DNA of 64,000 bases from NCBI RefSeq assembly GCF_000383955.1, contig NZ_KB913013.1, forward strand, positions 3,801,694-3,865,693, in the 5' to 3' direction. The DNA comes from Rudanella lutea DSM 19387. Lineage in GTDB: Bacteria; Bacteroidota; Bacteroidia; Cytophagales; Spirosomataceae. Position 1 is the stretch's first letter; each line of letters opens with the position of its first letter. The notes below the pieces were generated by a model. The model was given only the letters and a program-made list of their open reading frames with translations, was not told where the DNA came from and did no database searches. Below are positions 1,347-63,315 of the stretch, in pieces. Both the position numbers and the translations under genes were made by a program.

Positions 1347-2609
1347 GTGATCGATTCCAATAATCAACCGCTCCCTGATCTGGACAATATTTACCTCGCG
1401 GCCGACCGGCTCCGGGGCGTGGCTACCCATACGCCGTTGCAGGAAAACCTGAACCTGTCGGACCGGTACGGGGCCAATATCTTTCTCAAGCGCGAAGACC
1501 TTCAGGTGGTTCGGTCGTACAAAATCCGGGGTGCGTACAACAAGATGGCGGCCCTCCCCAACGAGTCGCTGGCCAAGGGGGTGGTGTGCGCCAGTGCGGG
1601 CAACCACGCGCAGGGCGTAGCGTATGCGTGCCGCAAAATGGGTGTCAAAGGCATTATTTTCATGCCTACCACTACGCCCAACCAGAAGGTAAAGCAGGTG
1701 AAGCTGTTCGGGAAGGCATTTGTAGATGTGGAGCTGATTGGCGATACCTACGACGATGCCTACGCGGCCGCTAACCAGTACGTGCAAACCCACGACAGTA
1801 CGTTTGTGCACCCGTTCGACGATGTGCTCGTGATGGAGGGACAAGGCACCGTAGGGCTCGAAATCTTCAAAGACGCCAACTTCAAAATCGATTACGTCCT
1901 CATGGCTATCGGCGGGGGCGGGTTGGCGGCCGGCGTGTCGACGGTGTTTCGGCAGTTGAGCCCCAAAACCAGGCTCATCGGTGTGGAGCCGCTGGGGTCG
2001 CCTTCTATGAAAGTCTCACTGGAACAGGGCCATGTCGTCGCCCTCGACCATATCGACAAGTTTGTCGACGGGGCGGCCGTGAAACGCGTGGGCGATATTA
2101 CGTTCCAAATCTGCCGCCAGAATCTCGACCGGGTGGTGCTGGTGCCCGAGGGCAAAGTGTGCACGACCATTCTGCAACTTTACAACGAAGAGGCTATTGT
2201 GGCCGAGCCAGCCGGGGCGCTGTCTATTGCCGCGCTCGATTTGGTGAAAGACGAAATCCGGGGCAAAAACGTGGTGTGTCTGGTGGGGGGCGGCAACAAC
2301 GACATCACCCGCACCGAAGAAATTAAGGAACGGTCACTCCTATACGAAGGGCTCAAACACTACTTCATTATCCGGTTTCCGCAGCGGGCTGGGGCCTTCC
2401 GCGATTTTCTGAATGTGCTTGGCCCCTCCGACGATATTACCCGGTTCGAGTATGCCAAAAAGACCAATCGCGAAATGGGGCCGGCCGTAGTGGGTATCGA
2501 ACTGAAACACCGCGACGATTTTGAGCCATTGCTCCAGCGGATGCAGGCGCAGAACATCGTGTTTGAATACCTCAATGACCAACCGGATTTGTTCCAGTTT
2601 TTGATTTAA
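1347..2609 (+). CDS. ilvA: Threonine dehydratase (biosynthetic type, short C-terminal ACT-like domain)
   Basis: PLP enzyme that deaminates threonine to 2-oxobutyrate, the first committed step to isoleucine. The Schiff-base lysine is K59 in SYKIRGAYN, and the phosphate loop GGGGLAAG is at 189-196. Residues from about 330 form one ACT-like regulatory domain (RAGAFRDFLNVL), so the 420-residue protein is the shorter biosynthetic form and not the two-ACT E. coli form. The start is GTG: an in-frame TGA lies 10 bp upstream and there is no earlier ATG. The window also codes a citramalate synthase, giving a second route to 2-oxobutyrate. A repeat arm begins directly after the stop codon. Confidence 0.95.
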   Translation: MIDSNNQPLPDLDNIYLAADRLRGVATHTPLQENLNLSDRYGANIFLKREDLQVVRSYKIRGAYNKMAALPNESLAKGVVCASAGNHAQGVAYACRKMGVKGIIFMPTTTPNQKVKQVKLFGKAFVDVELIGDTYDDAYAAANQYVQTHDSTFVHPFDDVLVMEGQGTVGLEIFKDANFKIDYVLMAIGGGGLAAGVSTVFRQLSPKTRLIGVEPLGSPSMKVSLEQGHVVALDHIDKFVDGAAVKRVGDITFQICRQNLDRVVLVPEGKVCTTILQLYNEEAIVAEPAGALSIAALDLVKDEIRGKNVVCLVGGGNNDITRTEEIKERSLLYEGLKHYFIIRFPQRAGAFRDFLNVLGPSDDITRFEYAKKTNREMGPAVVGIELKHRDDFEPLLQRMQAQNIVFEYLNDQPDLFQFLI

Positions 2610-2612
2610 ATT

Positions 2613-2745
2613 TTTCGACAGGATTACAGGATGGGCAGGATTTTGTCTTGCGTGAAGGTTTTGACAGGGTTACAGGATGGGCAAGATTTTGTTTTGTATG
2701 TTGATTGAGAAGGTTTTGACAGGATTACAGGATGGACAGGATCTA
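2613..2745 (+). repeat. Left arm of gene-bearing palindrome (ACAGGAT octamer family)
   Basis: Three tandem copies (2617-2645, 2663-2691, 2718-2743) of a roughly 29 bp unit, itself made of degenerate octamers ACAGGATT/ACAGGATG. The copies are the reverse complement of the array at 3175-3276. Copy 3 matches the first right copy over about 36 nt with one mismatch; copy 1 matches the second right copy over 34 nt with one indel. Confidence 0.9.
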
Positions 2746-2750
2746 GTATG

Positions 2751-3125
2751 CTATGTGGATGAACGGACGCGGTATTTGCGTTTTACGCTTACACTTGACC
2801 CGAAATTAATTAGTAGTCCGATGTCAATACCCGTTGCGGTGAGGTAGTTCACAAGCTGGGCTTCGTGTTTTGGGTGAATCTGCTCCACGGCTTTCAACTC
2901 AATCAGAAGGCAGGATTCAACAAACAGGTCAGCCACAAAATCGCCCACAGGAACGCCCTTATATGTAACCGGAATAGGCACTTGGGCTTCTACGAACAGT
3001 CCGAGTTGTTGCAATTCGACCACCAACGCGTTTTCATACACTTTTTCCAAAAAGCCCGGACCCAATGTATTATGAACAGTGAAAGCAGCCCCTATAACCA
3101 ATTCAGTAAGTTCTTTATGAATCAT
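2751..3125 (-). CDS. GxxExxY family protein (PD-(D/E)XK nuclease superfamily)
   Basis: A 124-residue protein with the family signature GPGFLEKVYE near the N-terminus, then GDFVADLFVE and LLIELKA, which supply the D...ExK pattern of PD-(D/E)XK nucleases (the Pfam PDDEXK_3 group, from memory). The biochemical role of the family is unknown. I chose ATG at 3125 (MIHKELTEL) because the longer frame to 3299 only translates repeat DNA. The gene sits alone in the loop of a palindrome built from ACAGGAT repeats, between ilvA and an AraC gene on the other strand. That placement suggests a link with the repeats, as in REP-associated transposases; this is inference. Confidence 0.85.
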   Translation of the reverse strand: MIHKELTELVIGAAFTVHNTLGPGFLEKVYENALVVELQQLGLFVEAQVPIPVTYKGVPVGDFVADLFVESCLLIELKAVEQIHPKHEAQLVNYLTATGIDIGLLINFGSSVSVKRKYRVRSST

Positions 3126-3174
3126 ATAGAATGAAATAAAGCGATAAGAGTCCAAAAGTAACTCCTGGTGTACA

Positions 3175-3276
3175 AAAAAATCCTGTCCATCCTGTAATCC
3201 TGTCGAAACCTTCTCACAAGACAAAATCCTGCCCATCCTGTAAATCCTGTCAAAAAAGTAAATCCTGTCGAAAAAT
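3175..3276 (-). repeat. Right arm of gene-bearing palindrome (ACAGGAT octamer family)
   Basis: Copies at 3175-3211 and 3220-3256 and a partial copy at 3259-3276, inverted relative to the left arm. The arm ends at the base before the ATG of the AraC gene, so that gene's promoter or leader lies in repeat DNA. Confidence 0.9.
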
Positions 3277-4152
3277 ATGCTTCGCGTTCCGTCATCCATT
3301 CAGCCGAGTCAGTTTGAGACCTTACGTATCCGGCGGCCCGATGCCACCGAGATGACGTTTGTGGCGTACCGGAGCGACGTGTACCCCGAACGGAACGAAG
3401 TCTTTTTTGAAGAGCATGCCGTGATTGTGGTGCTGGAGGGCGAAAAAAAATTCAGCTCGCCCACGCAGGAGCTACACGTGCACAAAGGGCAGATTCTGTT
3501 TTTTCAGCGCGGCTGCTACTCCATGAACGAATCCATCGACACCAACTACAAAAGCCTGGTGTTTTTCGTCAACGAGAAGCTACTCAAGGAGTTTGTGAGT
3601 CAGCACCTCCCGGTATTTCAGTCGTCGTTTGCCTCCTCGTCGGAGCGCCCCTTGCCGGGCGAGGCTATTTTATCATTGGCTTCTTCACCGGCGTTTACCA
3701 CGTTTATTCAGTCGCTGTTGCCGTATTTTGGGGCCGATACGCCGTACCTGAACGAGTTGCTGCGGCTCAAATACCAGGAATTGCTGATTCATCTGCTCGA
3801 ACTCGACACTACCGGCCAACTGCGTGGTATCTTGCTCGATATTTACCAGGGCCAGAAAACCGACCTCGATTACCTAATGAATGCGTACCTGCTCAAGCCG
3901 TTGTCGATGAGTGAACTGGCCCGGTTGTCGGGGCGGAGCCTGTCGACGTTCAAGCGTGATTTCGAAAGCCATTTTCACACATCGCCGGGGCAATGGATGC
4001 GCCAGAAACGGCTCGAACACGCGCATTTTCTCCTGCGCAACACAACCAAAAACGTGTCGGAGGTCAGTATGGAGATCGGGTACGAAAGCGTGTCGCACTT
4101 TATCAAAGCCTACAAGCAACAGTACGGAGCCACGCCCAAGCGGGTAGGGTAA
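3277..4152 (+). CDS. AraC family transcriptional regulator
   Basis: A 291-residue regulator. The N-terminal half looks like a cupin-type sensor (VLEGEKKFSS, HKGQILFFQRG). The C-terminal 90 residues carry the two helix-turn-helix motifs of the AraC family: MSELARLSGRSLSTFKRDF, then VSEVSMEIGYESVSHFIKAY and the closing QQYGATPKR. The N-terminal part resembles ExsA-like AraC proteins common in Bacteroidota. The effector and targets are not visible. Its ATG directly follows the repeat array. A Crp-type regulator gene starts 24 bp downstream on the same strand, so the two may be co-expressed. Confidence 0.9.
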   Translation: MLRVPSSIQPSQFETLRIRRPDATEMTFVAYRSDVYPERNEVFFEEHAVIVVLEGEKKFSSPTQELHVHKGQILFFQRGCYSMNESIDTNYKSLVFFVNEKLLKEFVSQHLPVFQSSFASSSERPLPGEAILSLASSPAFTTFIQSLLPYFGADTPYLNELLRLKYQELLIHLLELDTTGQLRGILLDIYQGQKTDLDYLMNAYLLKPLSMSELARLSGRSLSTFKRDFESHFHTSPGQWMRQKRLEHAHFLLRNTTKNVSEVSMEIGYESVSHFIKAYKQQYGATPKRVG

Positions 4153-12926: not shown

Positions 12927-13523
12927 ATGGCTTACGATAAATTTACGGTTCTCCGGTCTACGGCCGTTCCGATGCCCATCGAGAACGTTGATACGGACCA
13001 AATCATACCCGCCCGCTTCCTCAAAGCCACAGAGCGCAAAGGATTTGGCGACAATCTGTTCCGCGATTGGCGGTACAACAATGACGATACCCCCAAGGCC
13101 GATTTTGTGCTGAACAACCCGACCTACAAAGGTAAAATCCTGGTAGGAGGCAAAAATTTCGGGAGTGGCTCAAGTCGCGAGCACGCTGCCTGGGCTATCT
13201 ACGACTACGGCTTCCGGTGTGTGGTATCAAGCTTTTTTGCCGACATTTTCCGGGGCAACGCCCTGAACATCGGCATTCTGCCGGTGCAGGTGAGCCCTGA
13301 GTTTCTGGAGAAAATCTTCGCAGCCATCGAGGCCGACCCCAACACCGAGCTGGAGGTGAACCTGCCCGAACAAACCATCACGATTCTGGCAACGGGCGAG
13401 AGCGAGAGCTTCGGCATCAACGGCTACAAGAAGCACAACCTCACCAACGGTTTCGACGATATCGATTATCTGTTGTCTATGAAAGGGGAGATTGAGCAGT
13501 TTGCCGAAACGAGACCATTTTAA
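12927..13523 (+). CDS. leuD: 3-isopropylmalate dehydratase small subunit
   Basis: A 198-residue swivel-domain subunit of isopropylmalate isomerase. It shows [13 protein letters not shown], the conserved start of the substrate-binding segment, and [18 protein letters not shown], the loop that recognises the gamma-isopropyl or smaller side chain, followed by [16 protein letters not shown]. Normal length for the bacterial family. It partners with LeuC encoded just upstream. Confidence 0.97.
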
Positions 13524-13525
13524 TT

Positions 13526-13623
13526 GGTGAATGAGTGATTGAGTGAATGAGCGAATAAAAAAGGGAATCAACTCTGGTTTTACGAATTCACTCAATCACT
13601 CAATCACTCAATCACTCATTTCT
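13526..13623 (+). repeat. Octamer-based palindrome between leuD and cimA
   Basis: Left arm 13526-13556 is built of octamers GTGAATGA-GTGATTGA-GTGAATGA-GCGAATAA. Right arm 13584-13623 is the complement of GAGTGATT repeats. It starts 3 bp after the leuD stop and ends 3 bp before the cimA ATG. An open GTG frame through it would extend cimA by 28 residues of repeat translation, which I reject. Confidence 0.9.
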
Positions 13624-15147: not shown

Positions 15148-15230
15148 ACGGAAAAGGGAAAACGGAGAACGGAACAGGAAGTTGAATCCGGCGTTTTCCC
15201 TTCTCCTTTTTCCCTTTTTCCTTTTTCCCC
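15147..15230 (+). repeat. Heptamer-based palindrome between cimA and leuB
   Basis: Left arm 15147-15181 reads GACGGAA-AAGGGAA-AACGGAG-AACGGAA-CAGGAAG. Right arm 15191-15230 is the complement of the same AAGGGAA heptamers. The arms occupy the whole spacer, from the last base of the cimA TAG to the base before the leuB ATG. Confidence 0.88.
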
Positions 15231-23510: not shown

Positions 23511-25979
23511 ATGAATTTACTTCTTCGGCTTTGTCTGACGGCGGGCCTTCTCTGGCTTGGCCTTAACTTGCCCCAATACACTATTGCTCAATCGACTACG
23601 CCAGCCGGTAACGCGGTGCTGAATGGTCTGGTGACCGATCAGAAAACCCGTGAACCGCTCATCGGGGCTACCATCTACATCCCATCCCTGCAAAAAGGAG
23701 CGGCAACCGATACGCTCGGCCGGTTTCGGTTGCCGGGCTTGCCTATAGGGCCGTTGTCGGTGGAGGTGCGGTTGGTGGGCTATAAAACACTCACCCGCCG
23801 GGTGCAGCTCTCGGCCGATAGCACCCGGTTCGATTTCATGCTGGCTACCGAGGCTACTCAACTGAATGAAGTGGTGGTCACCGGCCTCACAACGGGCTCT
23901 ACCGTGAAAGAGAGCCCTATCCCAATCATGACGTACTCGAAAATGCAGTGGCTTCAAACAGCCTCGACCAACCTGGTCGATGCAGTGGTGAAACTGCCCG
24001 GTATGTCGCAAATTTCGACGGGTGTAGGTCTGTCGAAACCCGTAATTCGGGGCTTGGGTTTCAACCGGGTTATCACCGTGCACGACGGCGTGCGGCAGGA
24101 AGACAATCAGTGGGGCGAAGAACACGCTCTGCAAATTGATGAGTACTCGATTGATCGCTACGAGATTATCAAAGGAGCTGGGAGTTTGCTGTACGGTTCC
24201 GACGGGCTGGGCGGGGTTATGAGCCTGATCTCGGCACGCCCCCCGCAGCCGGGCGTAACACAGGGGCAAATCATGACCAACTACCAGAGCAACAACGGGA
24301 TGCTTGGACTCTCAGCCATGATGGAAACCACGGGTCAGAAAGGGTTGTACGCCCGGTTGCGGGTGAGCGGCAAAAGCGCAGGCAACTACCGCAACCGTTT
24401 CGACGGGCGGGTGTACGGCTCAGCGTACCGCGAGATGGACGTAAACGGGGCCGTTGGCATCAGCCGGAAATGGGGCTATTCACAACTCAACTTCTCCAAC
24501 TGGCACCAGGACATTAACATCGTAACGGGCGAGCGCGACCGTACCGGCCGGTTTGTGAAACTGGTGCGGGTCAACGACACCACCGAAGATGTAGCGCCCG
24601 TGACGGATGCCGAGTTGCGGAGCCGCGCCATTAATCCGGCCAATTACCAGAATCTGAATCACGCCAAGCTGTCGTGGAATACCTTTGCCCGGCTAGGTCG
24701 GGGCAACCTGTCGGCGGTGGTGAGCTACAGCCAAAACCGGCGGCAGGAGTTTGCCAGTACACTCACGCCCGGCCAGCCAGCGCTGTATTTCTTCCTGCAA
24801 AATGTGTATTACGACCTGAAGTATTTCATGGACGCCCGCAACGGCTGGGAATTTACCGTGGGTACAAGCGGGCTGTGGCAGAAAAACCAGAACCGGGGCC
24901 TCGAAGTGCTGTACCCCGGTTATCAATCGCTCGACAACGGGGTGGTGGCCTTTTTTCAGAAAAAAACCGACCGACTCACGGTCAATGGTGGGGTGCGGGT
25001 GGATGTGCGCCGGATGCAGATCAACCCGCTCTACGTGGATGAGTCGGGCGCGTTTACCGAAACCAATGGCACCAACCGGGCGGTGCGGTTTGCGGGTTTA
25101 GACAAAACCTACGCCAACCCAACGGCGAGCCTGGGGGCTTCGTATGCTCTTACGCCCAAACTGACCATAAAAGCCAATTTGGCGCGGGGGTTCCGGGCGC
25201 CCACAACCCCCGAACTGTCGGCCAATGGCGAACATGCCGGTACATTCCGGTATGAAATTGGTAACCCCAACCTGAAGTCCGAAACATCATTCCAGAGCGA
25301 TTTGGGCGTAGTTTACGAAACCCCGGAGCTTTCCATTACGGCGAGTCTGTTCCGCAATGGGATTCAAAACTACACCTATTCCGAAAAGGTATTGAACCGG
25401 ATGGGGCAAGACTCTATTGTGGACCCCGCCCGGCCGATCCTGACCTATCGTTACGTGCAGGGCAACGCCGTTCTGTACGGGGCCGAGGCCCAGCTGGTGT
25501 ACAATCCGGCAGGGGCCAAATGGCTCCATTTGTCGGGAACGTACTCGCTGGTTCGTTCGCGAAATTTATCGGCTCAGGGCGATTCGGCCCGGTATCTGCC
25601 GTTCTTGCCGCCCCCGCGTACCATTGTACAGGCCAAGCTAACCCGGGCCGAACTGGGGCGCTCCTTACGAAATGCGTATGCGCAAACCGAAATCGAGTAT
25701 AATCAGGCACAGAATAGGGCATTATTAGCGTTCGGAACCGAAACGCCAACGCCTGCTTTTACGTTATGGAATGTAGGAGCTGGTGCCGACGTGGTAGGGA
25801 AAGACGGTCAAACCCGATTTTCGGTGTATCTGTCGATCAATAACCTGCTCGACCGTGCGTACCAAAGCCATCAGAATCGGTTGAAATATTTCGGGGAAAA
25901 CCCGGCGACCGGTCGGCTTGGGGTATTCAATATGGGTCGAAACGCCAGCCTGAAAGTGGTGGTGCCACTTCGCTTCTAA
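23511..25979 (+). CDS. TonB-dependent outer-membrane receptor, ZnuD-like
   Basis: An 822-residue outer-membrane protein. There is a signal peptide (1-26), a carboxypeptidase-regulatory-like domain (about 35-118, GLVTDQKTREPLIGATIYI), a plug (about 125-245) and a 22-strand barrel ending in an aromatic (VVPLRF). The plug motif HDGVRQEDNQWGEEHALQID near residue 200 resembles the DG-R...WGDEH-ID stretch of zinc receptor ZnuD, so the substrate is likely a metal or metal complex. The preceding gene encodes a His-rich membrane protein. The stop codon is the first triplet of a heptamer palindrome. Confidence 0.88.
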   Translation: MNLLLRLCLTAGLLWLGLNLPQYTIAQSTTPAGNAVLNGLVTDQKTREPLIGATIYIPSLQKGAATDTLGRFRLPGLPIGPLSVEVRLVGYKTLTRRVQLSADSTRFDFMLATEATQLNEVVVTGLTTGSTVKESPIPIMTYSKMQWLQTASTNLVDAVVKLPGMSQISTGVGLSKPVIRGLGFNRVITVHDGVRQEDNQWGEEHALQIDEYSIDRYEIIKGAGSLLYGSDGLGGVMSLISARPPQPGVTQGQIMTNYQSNNGMLGLSAMMETTGQKGLYARLRVSGKSAGNYRNRFDGRVYGSAYREMDVNGAVGISRKWGYSQLNFSNWHQDINIVTGERDRTGRFVKLVRVNDTTEDVAPVTDAELRSRAINPANYQNLNHAKLSWNTFARLGRGNLSAVVSYSQNRRQEFASTLTPGQPALYFFLQNVYYDLKYFMDARNGWEFTVGTSGLWQKNQNRGLEVLYPGYQSLDNGVVAFFQKKTDRLTVNGGVRVDVRRMQINPLYVDESGAFTETNGTNRAVRFAGLDKTYANPTASLGASYALTPKLTIKANLARGFRAPTTPELSANGEHAGTFRYEIGNPNLKSETSFQSDLGVVYETPELSITASLFRNGIQNYTYSEKVLNRMGQDSIVDPARPILTYRYVQGNAVLYGAEAQLVYNPAGAKWLHLSGTYSLVRSRNLSAQGDSARYLPFLPPPRTIVQAKLTRAELGRSLRNAYAQTEIEYNQAQNRALLAFGTETPTPAFTLWNVGAGADVVGKDGQTRFSVYLSINNLLDRAYQSHQNRLKYFGENPATGRLGVFNMGRNASLKVVVPLRF

Positions 25980-26078
25980 TGGATAATGTGTAATGTATAA
26001 TGAATAGTGGAGCGTTTTCGGCGCTATTGCCATCATTACTCATTATTCATTGTACATTACTCATTATACATTACGCCC
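25977..26078 (+). repeat. Heptamer-based palindrome between TonB receptor gene and mutL
   Basis: Left arm reads TAATGGA-TAATGTG-TAATGTA-TAATGAA-TAGTGGA from 25977, so the first TAA is the receptor gene's stop codon. Right arm 26032-26076 is the complement of the same heptamers and ends 2 bp before the mutL ATG. Confidence 0.88.
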
Positions 26079-32048: not shown

Positions 32049-32116
32049 GACAGGATTACAGGATTAAACAGGATTTCCATTCACACGAAAATCCTGTTTA
32101 ATCCTGTAATCCTGTC
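32049..32116 (+). repeat. Perfect 28 bp palindrome, ACAGGAT octamer family, gene-free
   Basis: Arms 32049-32076 and 32089-32116 are exact reverse complements with a 12 nt loop. Each arm is built from octamer-like ACAGGATT units. It has the same sequence family as the palindrome that encloses the GxxExxY gene at 2.6-3.3 kb. It fills the dxs-lysC gap and ends 5 bp before the aspartate kinase ATG. Confidence 0.95.
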
Positions 32117-42062: not shown

Positions 42063-42072
42063 TTTCAGGGAT

Positions 42073-42160
42073 CAGTGAACAACGAACAACGAACAGTAAC
42101 CAGCTCCGTAAACGGCTTATTGATTGCTGTTCGTTGTCAGTTGTTCGTTGTTAACTGTTA
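42073..42160 (-). repeat. Heptamer-based palindrome between era and der
   Basis: Left arm 42073-42100 contains AACAACG-AACAACG-AACAGTA. Right arm 42126-42160 is the complement of AACAGTT-AACAACG-AACAACT-GACAACG-AACAGC. The era stop codon (42158-42160) is part of the arm. Confidence 0.88.
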
Positions 42161-43357: not shown

Positions 43358-43430
<73 letters not shown>

Positions 43431-62523: not shown

Positions 62524-63216
62524 ATGGATATGCGACCTGTAAGCTCACTTTTGTTTGCCCTGCTCGAACAGCAGCCCGACGCCGAACGCGCCCTCACCTG
62601 GCTTCGGCAGCAACTCGATCTGTACCGTAACCAACCGACCAACGCCGTCTTTTACCGGGTTTTTACGGCCATGCCCCGGTTTATGGGTAAGGCGCCCGTG
62701 GTGGTTTCTGACGAGATGGCTACGGCGTTGGCCGAGGCTCGCCCCGGTTTCCAGCTTGTCGACTGGACCATGGATCGGCTGGCCCGCGTGTGGTGGCTGC
62801 TTCAGTATCCATCGGCCGACCGGCAGGAGTACCGGCGCAGTATCACCGAACTGTTTCGGGCGGCCGAAATGAACGAACTGGTGGCCCTGTACTCCGCCCT
62901 GCCCGTACTCGAATACCCCGAAGACTGGCGTTTTCAGGCTACGGAAGGCGTTCGGAACAATATTGCCGATGTGCAGGCGGCTATCATGCTGCATAACCCA
63001 TACCCGGCCGAGCAACTCGACGAAGCCGCCTGGAATCAGCTGGTGATGAAAGCCTTTTTTATTGGTAAAGATGTGACGCAGATTCAGGGCTTGTGGGCGC
63101 GTAACAACCCCAGGTTGCAAGCGATTCTGCACGACTTTGCCGCCGAGCGCCGGGCCGCCGGACGCGAGGTTCCCGAACATTTACCCAAACTAATGAGCGA
63201 AAGAGTGATAGAGTGA
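62524..63216 (+). CDS. eboA: EboA domain protein
   Basis: A 230-residue helical soluble protein with the EboA pattern: AMPRFMGKAPVVVSD, RPGFQLVDWTMDRLARVWWLL, MNELVALYSALPVLEYPEDW, VQAAIMLHNPYPAEQLDEAAWNQLVMKAFF and a final HDFAAERRAAGREV. It opens the ebo gene set known from Bacteroidota, cyanobacteria and eustigmatophyte plastids, which is linked to trafficking of scytonemin-type precursors; the job of EboA itself is unknown. The last six or so codons (SERVIE) run into a palindrome arm made of octamers. eboB follows. Confidence 0.82.
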   Translation: MDMRPVSSLLFALLEQQPDAERALTWLRQQLDLYRNQPTNAVFYRVFTAMPRFMGKAPVVVSDEMATALAEARPGFQLVDWTMDRLARVWWLLQYPSADRQEYRRSITELFRAAEMNELVALYSALPVLEYPEDWRFQATEGVRNNIADVQAAIMLHNPYPAEQLDEAAWNQLVMKAFFIGKDVTQIQGLWARNNPRLQAILHDFAAERRAAGREVPEHLPKLMSERVIE

Positions 63217-63315
63217 AAGAGTGAATGGCTTGTTCAGGAGGTAGATTCCCCCCTTTCTACGCTTTGCGGCCCACGCTCTTTCACACTTTCGTTCTTTCAC
63301 TCTTTTACAATTCAT
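63195..63315 (+). repeat. Octamer-based palindrome overlapping the eboA 3' end
   Basis: Left arm 63195-63228 (GAAAGAGT-GATAGAGT-GAAAGAGT-GAATG) includes the eboA stop codon. Right arm 63271-63315 is the complement of GTGAAAGA-type octamers. Confidence 0.85.

Follow-up and report, generated by a model that had tools for sequence, protein, structure and literature searches.

The gap between ilvA and an AraC gene of Rudanella lutea DSM 19387 (contig NZ_KB913013.1) is filled by a nested palindrome of short tandem repeats, whose loop carries a single gene encoding a GxxExxY protein, a predicted nuclease. The locus lies at 2608–3276 of the window, the 64,000-nt stretch analysed here (positions 3,801,694–3,865,693 of the contig). 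A preliminary description, made from the letters of the window, had claimed a large hairpin in this gap, and the arm alignments confirm it, with three modules on the left facing two full modules and a partial one on the right. The outermost arm pair (2603–2693 with 3174–3264) covers 91 nt at 82% pairing, an inner pair (2706–2742 with 3180–3216) matches at 36 of its 37 positions (97%), and a further pair (2613–2644 with 3177–3208) reaches 97% over 32 nt; the paired arms are separated by 437–532 nt. Folded as single-stranded DNA, 675 nt of the locus gave −128.8 kcal/mol, compared with −74.5 ± 4.8 kcal/mol for 20 shuffles (z −11.3). Arm strength was scored by aligning the two 600-nt flanks of a gene locally in inverted orientation and taking the highest-scoring alignment, with ≥30 counted as strong; when the window was tiled with 311 pseudo-genes (360-nt intervals), two reached this level, both at the GxxExxY locus (scores 129 and 32).

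The loop gene (Table 1) matches TIGR04256 (2.2e-42, 144 bits against a cut-off of 35) and PF13366 (6.7e-42, 143 bits against a cut-off of 22) and no other family, which bears out the earlier claim of one GxxExxY gene with a D...ExK motif. Its start is likely at 3125 rather than 3299, because the family alignment begins there and the longer open reading frame (ORF; 2751–3299) runs through the right-arm repeats. Across 25 aligned diverse relatives, D66, E76-x-K78, Q90-xxx-Y94 and G-x-G-x-x-E-x-x-Y are invariant or nearly so, with D66, E76 and K78 invariant. A sequence search of the PDB returned no homologue. A structure search with the predicted model (predicted local distance difference test score, pLDDT, 93) placed Cas4 SSO0001, LHK-Exo, lambda exonuclease and the archaeal Hjc resolvases as the nearest folds, the best matches being Cas4 4ic1 (E 1.4e-4), 3sz4, 6m9k and 2wiw; tRNA-splicing endonucleases were also among the matches. 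On this modelling the protein is a predicted member of the PD-(D/E)XK nuclease superfamily, with the D...ExK core in the expected fold. Purifying selection on the gene is strong, with a ratio of non-synonymous to synonymous change (pN/pS) of 0.02 at the window gene and 0.00–0.13 in six other pairs. The family is sporadically distributed, being present in half of 148 sampled Bacteroidota genomes, in up to 12 copies. For a second GxxExxY gene (L002; L numbers denote loci), the corresponding site in the sister species (L326 in genome G001) keeps a short, 92% identical gene piece, apparently a decayed remnant.

Inverted arms are a recurrent feature of the family. Strong arms flank 66% of 98 Bacteroidota loci (median score 33.5), a figure that, like the other association percentages, is only descriptive, because strong family matches were over-represented in the sampling and related loci are not independent. 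The corresponding controls were 4.2% for mismatched flank pairs, 4.3% for outer flanks and 3% for ParE toxin genes (30 loci). In other phyla, 21 of 24 loci (88%) scored ≥30, compared with 8% for mismatched flanks; these came from named genomes of Acidobacteria, Cyanobacteria, Planctomycetes, Verrucomicrobia, Chloroflexi, Proteobacteria, Hydrogenedentota and the archaeon Methanophagales. The 80 named loci from a genome-contig scan are relatives of the LLES-type subtype. Unit pairs of the form CRCNRAK pointing towards the gene were found at 60% of GxxExxY loci, at none of the 30 ParE loci, and at 3% of loci with S23-type four-helix-bundle genes. The suggestion that GxxExxY genes are enriched inside inverted short-period repeats was thus upheld.

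The arms are arrays of 7-mers with 2–3-nt spacers, giving a period of 9–10 nt, and the repeat family tracks the protein subtype, as had also been proposed. Protein identity correlates with the 5-mer similarity of the arms (Mantel r 0.363 over 64 loci; none of 2000 permutations as high), and r stays at 0.357 when only pairs from different host families are considered; common host ancestry is therefore no explanation for the match between unit and subtype. Individual pairings, whose patterns, unlike the Mantel test, were picked after the arms had been seen, include CCRCNRAG in 43 of 64 loci with LLES-type proteins (5 of 34 elsewhere), GAACRCNGAY in seven of eight with FLEKVYEN-type proteins, or subtype B (2 of 90 elsewhere), and CTGAACYRYGATT in four of eight with FQEVIYQR-type proteins (3 of 90 elsewhere). 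ACAGGAT accompanies all three proteins of the window type (the window protein, L036 and L111) and none of the other 95. Outside the Bacteroidota the units are CRCAGAG or CACGAAG, the CRCAGAG type surrounding one subtype from Cyanobacteria to the archaeon.

Comparison of congeneric genomes reveals these loci in several states. A clean empty site is seen where L114 holds 456 bp, and L321 and L331 only 12–13 bp. The gene has been lost with the arms retained in one pair (L033 vs L325), and in another a gene-free palindrome and a palindrome with gene occupy orthologous sites (L124 vs L322). At one site, between flanks that are 93–94% identical, the whole cassette has been replaced (L084 vs L095): arms and gene both differ, the genes being about half identical and the units distinct. 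At the window locus itself, the gene-bearing loop is inverted relative to its flanks in the sister species (L001 vs L036).

Gene-free palindromes also occur elsewhere in the window (Table 1). That at 32049, previously described as a gene-free 28-bp ACAGGAT palindrome, was verified as two fully complementary arms (32049–32076 and 32089–32116). The sister species has gene-free palindromes at the sites where those of the window lie (R. lutea vs L413–L416), but at 42066 and 25977 the unit differs between the sisters in both arms and the flanks are nearly identical.

Table 1. Palindromic features of the window and the gene in the loop at the GxxExxY locus
Feature	Position	Strand	Evidence
Left arm, three modules of ACAGGAT-type 7-mers (GACAGGATTACAGGATGGNCAGGATTTTG...)	2608..2742	+	arm alignment, sequence
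GxxExxY PD-(D/E)XK nuclease gene (predicted), 124 aa; catalytic-type residues E27, D66, E76, K78, Q90	2751..3125	-	profiles, family alignment
Right arm, inverted ACAGGAT-type modules (two plus a partial)	3174..3276	-	arm alignment
Gene-free palindrome, GAGTGATT units (class found around S23 four-helix-bundle genes)	13522..13620		scan, sister comparison
Gene-free palindrome, AGGGAAAA-like units	15150..15218		scan, sister comparison
Gene-free palindrome, AATGTAT units; other unit at the unchanged site in sister species	25977..26074		scan, sister comparison
Gene-free ACAGGAT palindrome, no MITE ends; kept at the sister-species orthologous site	32049..32116		sequence, sister comparison
Gene-free palindrome, CAACGAA units; AAAAGGA units instead in sister species	42066..42159		scan, sister comparison
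Gene-free palindrome, GAGTGAAA units	63192..63308		scan, sister comparison
MITE, miniature inverted-repeat transposable element.

ACAGGAT repeats are dispersed through the genome as well, with 44 occurrences of ACAGGATNNACAGGAT in R. lutea and none of the reversed control pattern. ACAGGAT pairs number 44 and 32 in the two sister species with the matching gene, against 0–2 in 57 other relatives, a distribution that at first sight resembled a REPIN-type population. Of 22 species-specific copies, at least 15 are missing from the orthologous site. At L004 (C1:442784-443216), a segment of ~122 bp with an ACAGGAT palindrome is present in four tandem copies, compared with one in the sister species (L223).

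S23-type genes form a second cargo of such arms. All five in the R. lutea genome lie within inverted short-period arrays, each with a different unit; over 35 S23 loci, 57% scored ≥30, the arm period being 7–8 nt, and protein and unit again correlate (r 0.37 over 18 loci; 2 of 2000 permutations). S23 ORFs are known from intervening sequences (IVSs) of 23S rRNA, inverted-repeat stems that RNase III cleaves and for which a mobile or selfish nature has been suggested (PMC4990558). An ACTTCTG-type 7-mer array in one query flank matches ~25 dispersed places in genomes G014 and G019, which suggests that S23-type arrays are abundant.

On balance, we consider it somewhat probable that the gene and its two arms constitute one small chromosomal element, in which each nuclease subtype recognises the 7-nt unit of its own palindrome. 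With the DNA single-stranded or extruded as a cruciform, the arms would form a hairpin or four-way junction, at which the nuclease probably cuts; cutting would favour excision or copying of the palindrome, its inversion or its conversion. The gene-free palindromes are, at least in part, internal-deletion derivatives. Binding and cutting by the protein of its own repeats are inferred from the fold and the match between unit and subtype; such cutting may drive the spread or turnover of the palindromes, and the host may gain by keeping the gene. The occurrence across many phyla of GxxExxY genes in hairpins whose units match the nuclease type points to a class of small palindromes, mobile or selfish and accompanied by a cognate enzyme, that has been overlooked.

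Several observations weigh against this interpretation. Approximately one third of the Bacteroidota loci are without strong arms, though unit pairs pointing towards the gene are present at 21 of these 33 loci, and GxxExxY is not the sole cargo, given the like anatomy around S23 genes. No target-site duplication is visible at the GxxExxY elements, L114/L321 included, deletion can also produce empty sites, and several gene-bearing loci are plainly inherited vertically. Moreover, most dispersed ACAGGAT palindromes sit inside a MITE of ~150 bp with terminal inverted repeats (TIRs) GGTGTAGGACAAGTT, several copies of which show a target duplication of roughly 8–11 bp. Members of this family (53–182 bp) may be empty, or may contain either ACAGGAT or CCCCCGGCCCCCTCC palindromes (L262, L264, L260, L279, L283). 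ACAGGAT copies ride this MITE, and their movements are therefore not creditable to GxxExxY; the outer TIRs, the target duplications and the empty or otherwise filled MITEs led us to reject the dispersed palindromes as proof of GxxExxY mobilisation. No GTGTAGG ends, the TIR of the MITE, were found at the window GxxExxY locus. The preliminary idea that GxxExxY proteins make or mobilise these palindromes consequently survives in part: cognate pairing is strong and gene-free relatives exist at orthologous sites, whereas the dispersed ACAGGAT copies belong mostly to the MITE and target duplication is lacking.

The MITE lends weight to an alternative in which nothing sets the palindromes apart from ordinary intergenic repeats, TIR-MITE transposition, replication slippage or template switching having moved or made them, and GxxExxY and S23 are useful host genes tolerated in, or co-copied with, hairpins. 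A mobile family with target duplications does carry ACAGGAT, and it has no autonomous insertion sequence partner in the R. lutea genome, where no TIR pair lies 1–3 kb apart. Some sites switch to gene-free palindromes with unrelated units, and strong purifying selection with vertical inheritance would suit a useful host gene. This alternative does not, however, lead one to expect a repeat unit that follows the protein subtype from one host family to another, nor that CRCAGAG-type units surround one subtype from Cyanobacteria to an archaeon, and we regard it as unlikely.

Distinctly unlikely, in our assessment, is a role for the arms in RNA, as in the IVSs of 23S rRNA, with RNase III trimming the stem and the product of the loop gene processing or binding the transcript. 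The anatomy of the S23 loci, the precedent of the Coxiella IVS, an S23 ORF flanked by inverted repeats and cut by RNase III (PMC4990558), and the tRNA-splicing endonucleases listed by the fold search are all in keeping with it. Against this, the nearest structural neighbours act on DNA, as exonucleases and resolvases, the inverted loop and the empty sites reflect changes at the DNA level, and the elements lie between protein genes. A known RNA family was also sought: an Rfam scan of the window found none at the locus and no rRNA, its sole match being a tRNA gene (43358–43430).

A nuclease core and sporadic distribution would also fit a defence or addiction function, in which restriction of foreign DNA is the task of the nuclease, with the arms acting as self-recognition or operator sites. 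We consider this very improbable, as PADLOC gave only marginal matches (E 0.013 and 0.041), leading us to discard a known defence family, and there is no partner gene. Only 8 of 72,556 plasmids carry GxxExxY, a scan of viral contigs yielded no confirmed relative, by which phage cargo was likewise rejected, and the gene-free palindromes would be left without a reason. Short-period repeats readily pair with one another, but an origin of the arms in chance or low complexity is refuted by the mismatched-flank, outer-flank and ParE controls (3–8%) and by the window background, and its probability is negligible.

A wider proposal is more tentative, and we offer it as a possibility rather than an expectation: that there is a phylum-spanning, hairpin-borne class in which a GxxExxY (period 9–10) or S23-type (period 7) protein recognises, creates, moves and rewrites its own tandem-heptamer palindrome, that the intervening sequences of rRNA are special cases of it, and that this class accounts for many unexplained short-period intergenic palindromes. 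In the open-access literature we found no description of GxxExxY–palindrome pairing and no report of PDDEXK_3 with inverted repeats. For the widespread, uncharacterised GxxExxY family, the pairing supplies a likely and directly testable substrate.

Among known systems, Cas4, lambda exonuclease and Hjc share the fold, E-x-K core and QxxxY motif with GxxExxY, but at ~14–19% identity and in other genomic contexts, and no iron-sulphur domain is expected at 124 aa. The GGTGTAGGACAAGTT MITE is likewise a small palindromic unit, mobile and able to carry an ACAGGAT palindrome, yet it has terminal inverted repeats and target duplications, and the GxxExxY element has neither. The IVSs of 23S rRNA resemble the element in their sporadic occurrence and in holding one small ORF within an inverted-repeat stem; their protein is a four-helix bundle encoded within 23S rRNA, whereas GxxExxY has a nuclease fold, an intergenic position (ilvA–AraC) and arms of short-period arrays. 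S23-family genes show IVS-like anatomy here outside rRNA, and the palindromes become linked to a puzzle that has stood for decades, that of the intervening sequences which encode S23. A close parallel, noted in the preliminary description, is with repetitive extragenic palindromes (REPs), or REPINs, and TnpA-REP (REP-associated tyrosine transposase, RAYT), together termed REPtrons. There, too, a single gene encodes a nuclease cognate to small palindromes of the chromosome, palindromes flank that gene, and gene-free copies exist. TnpA-REP groups have co-evolved with their REPs (PMC8266576). The likeness holds for the co-variation of enzyme and palindrome, but not for the enzyme, which is an HUH Y1 protein in REP/RAYT and PD-(D/E)XK here, nor for the GTAG/CGTC tag of REPs, no GTAG or CGTC being found by eye next to the palindrome at 32049 or to the arms at the gene locus. 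GxxExxY arms are instead tandem 7-mer arrays with a unit varying by subtype, and there are few gene-free copies per family, unlike REP/RAYT. GxxExxY offers a cognate enzyme for the many short-period palindromes of intergenic DNA, much as RAYT does for REPs, though with a different nuclease fold.
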